Assembly (NCBI GenBank): GCA_015680635.1
Contig: JAABOA010000152.1
Span: 1 to 22,377 of the forward strand
Reading direction: 5' to 3'
DNA length: 22,377 nucleotides
From: Lunasporangiospora selenospora
Taxonomy: Eukaryota; Mortierellomycota; Mortierellomycetes; Mortierellales; Mortierellaceae
This document shows positions 9,031 through 22,175 of the stretch, in pieces; position 1 is the first letter of the stretch; each line of letters begins with the position of its first letter. The translations under genes were made by a program, and so were the position numbers. The notes below the pieces were generated by a model. The model searched no databases, was not told where the DNA came from, and worked only from the letters and a program-made list of their open reading frames with translations.

Positions 9031-9075
9031 CTTGCTTGACTTGCTTGACTTGCTTGACTTGCTTGACTTGCTTGA
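9031..9075. repeat. Five perfect copies of a 9-bp tandem repeat
   Basis: The unit CTTGCTTGA (TCAAGCAAG on the minus strand) is repeated five times without mismatch. It lies about 100 bases upstream of the minus-strand ATG at 8929 and 37 bases downstream of a TATA-like box, so it is probably in the 5' leader of that gene. An isolated TCAAGCAAG also occurs just before that ATG. Confidence 0.95.
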
Positions 9076-14329: not shown

Positions 14330-15561
14330 CTAATTCACATCCGCCATGGCGCCAGACTCGGTCGCATTATTTCCTTCGCTAGCCTTCTGCTTGGCGAGGC
14401 CCTGCTGTGTGGATGAGGAAGCTGCGGCAATAGACGCACTAGGAAGTCCCTCAATACCGGCCATGATCCTTGCATGGCTCTCTTCCCTAATCATGTCCTG
14501 GTATCTATGCAGCTTGGCAACATCATGCAGTTTGAATCCAAAGATTCTTGGCACATAACGATCCGTGCTCTTGGGTGGCACCAACTGCGGGTAGACCTGG
14601 AAGAGCATATGAGGGAAACTGCAGCCAAAGTACGCACCATCAATCGATGCATGGCGAGTCGACTTTGGATTGTAAACATCTTCGCAACGGCAGCAGAAGA
14701 GTTTTACAGACTTTGAGAAGGGAACATCCGAAAGGGCGACTGGCAAGAGTGGATGGTTGTGGCAGAGCACTCGTGGGCACCTTCCAAAGTCGCACTTTTT
14801 GAACTTTTCGAGCTATTGATAAAAGCCAATGGAGTAGGGGGAAGCAAAAGATTGTTTTGTAAGAACGATAAAGTCAGGTTAGAATTGGATAGCACCACCA
14901 ATATCCCTAAAACAATGCAAGAAACAGAGGGGAGGGAAACCTCCTAGTAAAGCAAGGGCAGAGTCTGTACCATCTTTGTGAGCCCATGAGTAGTAATGAT
15001 GAACCGAGCATGGATCAATCCATAGAGGTGGCGAGCCGATTTTTCAACAATATCACGCATTTCCTCGTCCAAGTTCTCATCTAAAGAAAAAGCGCAGTAG
15101 GAACAATGACAATGAACAAGATGAGTTAGCACATTGGCTTGCATATCCCGAGCACTTGGACTAGCATAAAAAAAGAGCTCCATTTTTTCATTTTCTCTTT
15201 TTTTTTTTTTTTTTTTTTTTACCAAGGTTGTCCGTGATCAAGTCCAATGCCTGAGAGTAGTACTGGACCTCAGTGTTCAATCCTGTAAGGTTGAACCTGT
15301 CCAGGATGTAGTCCTCGTCCACCTCACAAAAGTACTCATTTCCCTTGGTACCCAAGAACCAGTCAATCCAGTACTTTGTGTAATCGGAATCAGATCCACT
15401 TGTGCAGTCTTCCACTATTTAATGACGACATTTACGGAGACAAAATGTAAAAAAAAAAAAAAAAAAAGGTGCAGAAATGATATCAGGAGGCATGTCAAGG
15501 CATCAAAACTCCAACGAACAAAGAACAAAAAATAACGGTTAAAAAGAAACGTTGACTCACT
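14330..15561 (-). CDS. CKB1: Casein kinase 2 regulatory (beta) subunit, start codon split by an intron
   Basis: Regulatory dimer of the CK2 Ser/Thr kinase holoenzyme, which stabilises the catalytic alpha subunits and directs substrate choice in nucleus and cytoplasm. Coding exons: A of the ATG at 15561, then 15414-15223, 15080-14971 and 14812-14330, giving 261 aa (human 215, yeast Ckb1 278, Ckb2 258). The N-terminus reads [20 protein letters not shown], followed by the family blocks [20 protein letters not shown] and [16 protein letters not shown]. Then come [20 protein letters not shown] and [13 protein letters not shown]. The dimerising zinc finger is intact, with CPRVLC and, after a spacer, CCRC, matching human Cys109, 114, 137 and 140. 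The block [18 protein letters not shown] follows. The last 50 or so residues are an Ala/Ser-rich tail. CK2 sites in the acidic Ser-rich N-terminus suggest autophosphorylation, as in relatives. The symbol is by family; paralogue assignment (CKB1 or CKB2) is not possible here. Confidence 0.93.
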
Positions 15562-16286: not shown

Positions 16287-18750
16287 CTACTCGGACATTT
16301 CTGCGTCACTCTCTGCTCCTCCTTTATCCTTCTCGGGACGCTTGAGTTTCGAGAACGTATCATCATCCATTTTCCGCCTCTTGCTATGATGCCATGAAGC
16401 GGTAGCATCTGACGGACGTCCAACACGCTCTAACCGAGGCTTCTTGTGTGGAGGAAGGATGCTGTATATATCATCGACACGGGGATCCATCAGGTCTTCA
16501 TCATCATCATCCTGGGATGGGTTCCATGACTGGGCCGTCTGTTTTGGTAGCTGACCATGCTCACGGAATAGGCGTCGGAATCCAGTTATCCATCGAGCGC
16601 TATCTGCACCATCGAGTCCCGTCGATCCACGAGAATCACCTGGAGGTGAGATTCCGAGGTCTTGGAACAATTGAACAAACTGGCGTTGACGGATCGGGTC
16701 TCGGCCGAGAAATACGACAATATAGCTGTGTACCTCGGAGTATCTCTGCTAGGGACAAAATTCAAGACGATTCGACTTTTACTGGTTAATAAAAATAAGG
16801 CCCCAACACCAATACTGAGGTTCCTTTTGGACGCTCGTATCATATCAAGAGTATCCAGGTCATCTTGCTTACTGTGTCCCTTGTATTAGCCTGCTCAAAC
16901 TTTAGCCCAGACATGACAACACAGGGCCAATCGGCTAGCTCTGTCCTGCCGAACCATGTAGATGATGTTGGTATCAATGTAATGGCTTCTACAACATTTC
17001 CTGTGGTAAAACAAGAGTACGTGGGATGAGAACAAAAGGCATCAGTCTCAAAGAACAATCAACACAAGAAATTTCTGTAGAAGAGGAAAGAAGGAAAAGG
17101 GATTACCATTGGCAAATTCTTCCCATAGCTTTGAATTCATATGACCTGCAAGACGCGTGTCATCTAACAGGACGACTTCTGCTTCTGTCTCATATCGACG
17201 TTTGGATGGAAGTATAGGGACATGCAAGAAACAAGACTGGATTGGTGAAAAACTGAGGGTCGCACCAATGTTGCTTGGATTTGATTCCGGGACTTGCCAG
17301 GAGTCGCTATCCATAATGAGCGGGAACGGTACCGATATCGGACACTCCATTTCCGTTCCGTCAAATGACGCCGAGTCCATCTGAGGAACTCCCCCAAAGA
17401 ACTTTAGAATACGCTCGAGCACGACATAGGGGGCATTGAATCTCCTCCTGTCGGCCAATAACTCAGAATACCGATCTTCGAATGCTACAGTCACTGGTGA
17501 TTGCTGATTCAAGGCAGATGAATTTGAAGGGCCAACATTTGGTCCGCACTGTGCAGGTATAAGTGGTTGGGCTGAATGTACTGGCTGAGAGATGCCGTTC
17601 TGAGATACTGAAGACTGGGATGGATACTGAAACTGGGAAGTTGATGATGAGCGTTGCTGGAATGGTGCTAACTGCGATTTGAAATGTGAATTTGACAGGG
17701 GATATGGTTGAGACTGCGATTGTACAGGTAGAGATGTCTGGGGCCCTGGTTGACGACTTCCAGCAATGGAAAGCGGCTGCTGGTGGTGCTGCTGCTGGTG
17801 ACCGTGATGGTGTTGTTGTTGTTGTTGTTGTTGGTGGTGGTGGTGCTGTTGCTGCTGCTGCTGTTGCTGCTGTTGCTGCTGTTGTTGTTGTTGTTGCTTT
17901 GCTCTTTCACTCATCACAACGCCGTCAACAAATCCAGAAGTCATTCCTTCTATATCAACGCGGTTACTAGGCCCAGGTCCATGTTGACTATGCCATGCCC
18001 TCAAAATACGTTTCCAGAGTTCTGGTGCAATAGAGACTCTTTGCAAGACTGCCGGCTGTAATTGGACTGAAGCCTCCGCAAGCGCCTTACACACTGGTTC
18101 TGATCTAGGTCGAACAGGTATCTCGGAGAGCTCCTTTAAAATAAAAAGTAATAATTGATTGATGAGCATTCTGTGTATCCGAACAAATCTGGTTGAACAG
18201 ACCAAAGATGATTGCGTGCCACCCTACCCGCAACAACTCGGCATACTCAATCTAATGCATGATGATAAAAGCAAGACCAAAAGGTGCATACTCGTGAGTA
18301 GAGAGAACATGGGAAACAGGGGCACAGAGAAGAGAAACAGTATCAAACCTATACACTTGCCAGCAATGCCTTTCTTGGTTTGGCAATATCCCACTGGTAT
18401 TTACAGAACTCGCCCTCATTGTGAAAACGGGCATCGCTTTTCCACAGGCGATTCAAAATGATCTCGCGGAATGCCAAGAGACTGATTTCAAACAGTGAAC
18501 TGGACGCTCCTGCGGATGGGCCAGCCTGTCGATGTCTCGAGGGGATGCCATGTTTAATAATGGATGGGTCAATCTAAAAAAAGGGCAAGAGAATTGCATT
18601 TTCTAGTCAACATCCCGCATCCGATAAGTTGACGGTAATAGAACCAAGTATGAACATAGTCGGCACCTTTTCGAGCTGCTTCTGTAAAGGTGTTTGCCGT
18701 GGTCGTGACAGATCGCTCACGGTTAGGTAGTCCGAGGTTGGTCGCTCCAT
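16287..18750 (-). CDS. PolyQ/polyH protein with phage-type DNA N6-adenine methyltransferase-like domain, 6 exons
   Basis: Exons: 18750-18667, 18573-18355, 18251-18228 (24 nt), 18133-17107, 17000-16873, 16745-16287. They sum to 1941 nt, about 646 aa, in frame throughout; introns are 93-127 nt. Layout: residues about 60-160 form a helical module with SLLAFREIILNRLW, FCKYQWDIAKPRKALLAS, IEYAELLR and ELSEIPVRPRSEPVCKALAE. Next is a Gln/His tract (about 187-225), then a Gln/Ser/Pro linker. From about residue 335 come FNAPYVVLERILKFFGG and MDSAS, then about 65 residues on VVLLDDTRLAGHMNSKLWEEF, NVVEAITLIPTSSTWF, VVMSGLKFEQA, HSYIVVFLGRD and FVQLFQDLG. The tail is acidic with basic, NLS-like clusters (KKPR, SKRRK). 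The order TPxxL...GxxDxDPxS...NPPY...G.V..A..L.P..T.TxWF...GRxxF...hVVFxG is that of phage/plasmid adenine methyltransferases, as I remember the family. The catalytic NPPY/DPPF position reads LDDT, so activity is doubtful. The homology is inference from pattern. Confidence 0.7.
17775..17897 (-). repeat. CAA/CAG and CAC/CAT tract encoding polyglutamine and polyhistidine
   Basis: About 40 near-uninterrupted Gln/His codons on the minus strand. Mixed CAA and CAG codons indicate an older, partly stabilised tract rather than a fresh expansion. The antisense frames read as poly-Leu and poly-Val and are artefacts. Confidence 0.95.
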
Positions 18751-22056: not shown

Positions 22057-22175
22057 TATTCTCCTTTTCAGATATTTTTGTTAGGATTACTCAACAATTA
22101 AGAACGGCCCTTTATTCTCCTTTTCAGACATTTTTGTTGTTTGCAGGATTACTCGACAATTAAGAATGGCCCTTT
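22057..22175. repeat. Imperfect tandem duplication of a ~57-63 bp unit
   Basis: Copy 1 (22057-22113) and copy 2 (22113-22175) share TATTCTCCTTTTCAGAYATT and, after TTTTGTT, AGGATTACTCRACAATTAAG and AAYGGCCCTTT. Copy 2 carries a 6-base insertion (GTTTGC or equivalent) in its middle. The element is T-rich on the + strand and lies just past the probable pseudogene. Confidence 0.85.

Follow-up and report, generated by a model that had tools for sequence, protein, structure and literature searches.

A bacterial mobile-element-type two-module protein, probably domesticated as a pseudo-methyltransferase in Mortierellomycotina

The question raised by this locus is whether a fungal nuclear gene holds a phage- or plasmid-type DNA N6-adenine methyltransferase and, if so, whether its product is still an enzyme. 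The gene lies at 18750-16287 on the minus strand of the 22,377-nucleotide stretch analysed here (the window; Lunasporangiospora selenospora, contig JAABOA010000152.1), where six exons join into a single open frame, and an initial annotation described its product as a captured phage or plasmid enzyme. Our results indicate that the window protein is probably a bacterial mobile-element protein of two modules, a helical module of plasmid-partition type (N-module) and a Dam-like methyltransferase domain (C-domain), which was domesticated as a pseudo-methyltransferase in Mortierellomycotina.

Homology of both modules to bacterial proteins

With a two-module hidden Markov model (HMM) built from 119 bacterial proteins, the window protein scored 33.9 bits and its fungal relatives up to 47.5 bits, against 3.7 bits for the highest-scoring of 903 decoys made by shuffling or reversal. 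Of the 43 fungal proteins, window protein included, 37 scored above the best decoy, the remaining six being short models. The two modules of the window protein also scored separately, the N-module at residues 63-140 with 16.3 bits and the Dam part at residues 437-524 with 18.5 bits. In the reverse test, which used 125 prokaryotic proteins (five of which have a single module) and 1125 decoys, the joined fungal profile placed 123 proteins above the best decoy, and the single profiles placed 118 (N-module) and 64 (C-domain). Alignment by hhalign gave 97.9% for the joined modules (E 6.3e-13), 90.8% and, in a separate comparison, 95.8% (E 7.9e-9) for the N-module alone, and 94.6-96.0% for the C-domain alone, whereas the maxima of 60 column shuffles each were 4.0%, 2.6% and 9.0%, respectively. 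The agreement of two modules in the same order, from which chance similarity had been argued to be less likely, is therefore beyond chance.

The architecture attributed to bacterial plasmid and phage proteins does exist, because natural bacterial fusions carry both modules. A query joining the bacterial module to Dam retrieved 3720 proteins (7998 candidates scored), and all 120 listed carry PF05869; when separate profiles were applied, both modules were found in each of these 120, with the N-module first in 119. The other one, the metagenome protein P0143, has the reversed order, Dam and then the partition-type module, and was excluded from the bacterial HMM and the tree. Some sources name these bacterial proteins 'phage N-6-adenine-methyltransferase' or 'ParB family chromosome partitioning protein'. 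In the tree, the eight fungal rows formed a clade (support 1.0) that sits on a stem of 2.0 at the midpoint root, and the donor was not placed.

The motifs first noted by eye are present in the order of Dam, namely MDSAS, LWEEFANG, TSSTWF, SGLKF, FLG and FVQLFQDLG, and those noted in the N-terminal part match the bacterial helical module (plasmid tblastn, hhalign and HMM). The N-module is all helical in the structure model. The parts of the protein, all on the minus strand, are as follows.

17921..18495, minus strand: helical N-module of plasmid-partition type (about residues 55-178, exons 2-4), placed by the bacterial HMM, hhalign and the all-helical model
17486..17896, minus strand: poorly conserved Q/H-rich linker (residues 187-323), with a tandem repeat at 17811-17898
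16644..17485, minus strand: Dam-like domain (residues 324-526, exons 4-6), placed by the bacterial HMM at residues 437-524 and by hhalign
17366..17380, minus strand: MDSAS, the equivalent of LDPAS, with Asp kept and Pro changed to Ser in the window species (column table)
17213..17224, minus strand: HVPI at the site of the bacterial catalytic NPPY, motif IV (hhalign, pattern search and column table)
16287..16487, minus strand: conserved C-terminal tail, DPxxDDIYSxxPPxKK... to MSE, with invariant columns
16425..16445, minus strand: basic cluster KKPRLER, conserved in the family alignment, likely part of a nuclear localization signal
16371..16382, minus strand: basic cluster KRRK, invariant in the family alignment, likely part of the same kind of signal

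The resemblance is highly improbable as the product of chance or as the mark of an unrelated eukaryotic family, a reading that draws on the single-sequence searches. The PF05869 match proposed as a check was missing by hmmscan, in which neither the window protein nor eight trimmed family members gave a PF05869 row up to E 10; homology to this family was obtained with profiles, by hhalign and the two-module HMM. The same Pfam rows up to E 10 held neither PF05063 nor PF02384 (MT-A70- and MetB-type writers). Single-sequence scans of PHROGs and NCBIfam gave one row each (E 0.17 and E 0.09), with no match above chance, and a search of PDB sequences with the family profile returned a single row, attributable to chance. 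None of the 85 rows of a BFVD fold search was under E 0.001, and two nameless rows had a probability of 0.99. Single tblastn matches reached only E 1-8. Against this reading stand the two independent modules, found in the right order with decoy and shuffle controls.

In detail, the family consensus gave a single match among 50,697 phage records (E 1), in a PF05869 Dam gene. The Dam of Aliivibrio phage H905 (L001:3653-4261) passes the PF05869 cut-off and reads NHPF at the NPPY site. Against 72,556 plasmids the C-domain gave four rows (E 1-2). The row listed first, from Calothrix, matches PF05869 Dam in hmmscan (6e-19); none of the remaining three is a PF05869 Dam, and one of them has a better E-value than the Calothrix row. 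The N-module gave five plasmid rows (E 1-8); the top row and the fourth come from cyanobacterial plasmids and are proteins with exactly the module named in the initial annotation, and the remaining three carry no annotation to that effect. In the phage records, the N-module consensus gave seven rows (E 6-10), and the bacterial N-module gave none at 1e-4. PF05869 was found in 12 of 292 cyanobacterial genomes and in none of the five genomes reached via loci. No N-module was seen ahead of Dam in the cyanobacterial frames displayed (L017 came without display, and L015 has ParB_N instead).

On plasmids, the N-module occurred in 100 records at 1e-4. At four of ten fetched loci (Kitasatospora, Emticicia, Spirosoma and Streptomyces) its gene adjoins a ParA or AAA ATPase gene; another of the ten has ParA about 1.2 kb off on the opposite strand, and one is without annotation. 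On the Gloeothece plasmid, also among the ten, a cytosine-5 DNA methylase precedes the partition-type module in a fused protein (L024:1367-3304). The link with ParA suggests that the N-module may bind DNA.

Motif IV and catalytic status

Motif IV takes part in the catalysis of N6-adenine methyltransferases. In the column table, this site reads N-P-P-Y/F in all 119 bacterial rows and H-V-P-I/V/M in all eight fungal rows, and hhalign places the fungal HVP on the bacterial NPP. All 35 homologs whose sequence extends to the site have HVP(I/V/M): the pattern HVPxxP[ST]KR occurs in 34, and the model of P0033, which starts at the site, also has HVP; the other seven do not cover it. The pattern [ND]PP[YFW] was found nowhere in the 42 homologs. 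In the structure model, a strand ends at motif IV and is followed first by a hairpin insertion, then by a helix and lastly by the strand EAISLVP, which would be the expected order.

NPPY was thus lost in the family. A second lineage of adenine methyltransferases, as suggested by the initial annotation, is not supported, since its motif list omitted the catalytic motif and the family reads HVP at that site. Because motif IV is known to be catalytic in these enzymes, the fungal enzyme is, judged by its sequence, most likely dead, and the strict conservation of HVP suggests selection for something other than catalysis.

The same strict conservation could be taken to mean that the protein still methylates, using an atypical motif IV. 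The Asp of the LDPAS motif is likewise retained in all rows, including the eight fungal ones, where Pro is kept in seven, and the relevant part of PMC11258239 describes the lineage as rich in N6-methyladenine (6mA). We regard this as very unlikely, however, because motif IV has lost both N/D at its first position and the aromatic residue at its fourth, and this part of the paper gives MT-A70 and MetB as the writers in the lineage. The presence of Dam-like motifs in a fungal protein does not necessarily imply enzyme activity.

Gene model, family and genomic setting

The six-exon gene of the initial annotation was upheld with one boundary corrected from homologs. The end of exon 2 was set to 18361 because homologs covering the join read ..LL|IECAEL; the intron is GC-AG with the donor GCAAGT, six bases before the end in the first model, and the corrected protein has 644 residues instead of 646. 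At the join of exons 5 and 6 the homolog alignment shows that the window protein is without a few residues present in most relatives, and a TAGCAG pair at this last acceptor possibly leaves one extra Gln in the window protein.

18667..18750, minus strand: exon 1 (residues 1-28), from the open frame and homolog alignment
18361..18573, minus strand: exon 2 (residues 29-99), from the sequence and homologs
18228..18251, minus strand: exon 3 (residues 100-107), 24 nucleotides, from the open frame and homolog alignment
17107..18133, minus strand: exon 4 (residues 108-449), from the open frame and assembly match
16873..17000, minus strand: exon 5 (to residue 492), from the open frame and assembly match
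16287..16745, minus strand: exon 6 (residues 493-644 and stop), from the open frame and assembly match

When a homolog query was run against the source assembly (8.2 Mb, completeness not stated), four matches were obtained, all of them exons of the window gene. The same contig carries genes of Sec15, ribosomal L16/L10e and the regulatory (beta) subunit of CK2, and these together with the five introns identify a fungal nuclear gene. Contamination and a pseudogene were both ruled out by the introns, the fungal neighbour genes and the conserved frame.

A search with residues 370-590 against 5.8 billion proteins gave 27 homologs at E 3e-48 or better and a search with the family profile gave 28, the union being 42 (P0001-P0042). 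The source is named for 34 of them, and all of these come from genera that we take to belong to Mortierellomycotina, including Mortierella, Linnemannia, Podila, Lobosporangium, Gamsiella, Dissophora, Actinomortierella and Haplosporangium; the other eight are nameless. No other organism was listed up to E 10 in searches that detect only proteins sharing short words (7997 candidates scored with the profile). The family is conserved across this lineage: mean column identity was 0.71 for the N-module, 0.80 for the C-domain, 0.79 for the C-terminal tail and 0.43 for the linker. The family alignments took in 20, 24, 19, 8, 11 and 11 sequences, drawn from the 42 homologs or the window protein. In the passages covered by our literature search, which included PMC5512222 and PMC6211444, no description of the fungal family was found, and an earlier mention is possible.

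The CK2-beta gene (14333-15415, minus strand) is the next gene below on the same strand, and seven of the 42 homolog models continue into it, as would be seen if the window gene formed the N-terminal portion of a fusion with CK2-beta. This is the least probable of the readings considered here, as CK2-beta in the window has a separate ATG at 15415, some 870 bases below the stop of the methylase-like gene, and 20 non-fused aligned models share the terminal MSE stop. The seven fusions are probably merged gene models, and such database models, which seem to join the two genes, should be used with caution.

An Rfam scan of the window gave no match. Two tandem repeats were also seen in it, a 62-base AT-rich unit in two copies at 22057-22175 and a 9-base unit in five perfect copies at 9031-9075.

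Route of transfer, possible role and known systems

We infer that the transfer ran from bacteria to fungi. A prokaryotic mobile-element protein, made of a plasmid-partition-like helical module and a PF05869-type N6-adenine methyltransferase, would have entered an ancestor of Mortierellomycotina, where it would have gained introns, the Q-rich linker and new tails, lost the catalytic motif and been retained since as a pseudo-methyltransferase.

The serious rival, and the main one as to the route, is that the Dam-like domain came from the pol of a DIRS retrotransposon and was then domesticated by the host, with the N-module either added afterwards or brought along by an element that already had it. 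The relevant part of PMC3783388 describes DIRS elements of early fungi with a methylase domain detectable by PF05869, and tyrosine-recombinase (YR) elements in Mortierella verticillata; that of PMC3537659 terms the DIRS1 methylase of ALOG-type elements catalytically inactive. The DIRS methylase is thus alike in being a PF05869-type domain of fungal genomes, but it sits in a retrotransposon pol open reading frame, whereas the window gene belongs to the host, is present in single copy and includes the N-module. As far as the passages describing it go, and compared by description only, DIRS pol consists of reverse transcriptase, RNase H and methylase, with no such module named, whereas in the fungal family the N-module stands ahead of Dam as in the bacterial proteins. 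This speaks for descent of the fungal sequence from a bacterial two-module protein. A PF05869 search of the source assembly found nothing, and the sole reverse-transcriptase stretch listed for it has no methylase nearby. That stretch (G000:C165:9281-9715; L042), the only RVT_1 match listed for the assembly, is decayed and has an internal stop. We consider descent from DIRS unlikely. Of the phage or plasmid origin first proposed, shared descent with the proteins having the helical module and then PF05869 stands, and the capture itself may have been indirect, by the DIRS route.

As for the present job of this probable pseudo-methyltransferase, a role as scaffold or regulator rather than enzyme is proposed because the key catalytic motif is lost, and a nuclear protein of regulatory type would be in keeping with its basic tail and Q-rich linker. 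Our tentative proposal, to which we give somewhat under even chances, is a nuclear scaffold or regulator that is associated with DNA and has no catalytic activity: DNA would be touched by the N-module, and perhaps by the dead Dam fold as well, and the linker and tail would recruit partners. It is a good deal less likely that the dead fold and the partition module bind DNA that is possibly 6mA-marked, steering transcription or the placement of 6mA without methylating, though the protein is possibly a reader or partner of 6mA. According to the relevant parts of the sources, Mortierellomycota are among the groups highest in 6mA and have MetB (PMC11258239), and Lobosporangium, from which P0015 comes, belongs to the members that bear 6mA (PMC8298701). 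MT-A70 is the subject of a survey of 6mA writers in eukaryotes, and 'phage' and 'Mortierell' do not occur in the portion concerned (PMC12695648). If true, this role would give a new handle on the reading or placing of 6mA in high-6mA fungi, and a plasmid-segregation module would have been reused in a eukaryotic nucleus.

Compared with the bacterial and metagenomic two-module proteins (P0048-P0167), the fungal family has the same modules in the same order by HMM and hhalign, but the former keep NPPY (120 of 120) and have a short linker, whereas the latter has HVP and a Q-rich linker, together with introns and additional conserved tails. MetB (PF02384) is likewise an adenine methylase that early-diverging fungi took up from bacteria, as described in part of PMC11258239; it differs in belonging to another family, in being active and in having no partition-type module. 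Mta9 of the fungal MTA1 complex resembles the window protein as a non-active DNA methyltransferase retained as a partner (the relevant parts of PMC11258239 and PMC13297926), but it is of the MT-A70 family, and for the window protein the partner role is only putative. Uptake of MetB and inactive methylases as partners in 6mA complexes are thus already known, and the window family, if this reading is true, would join both themes.
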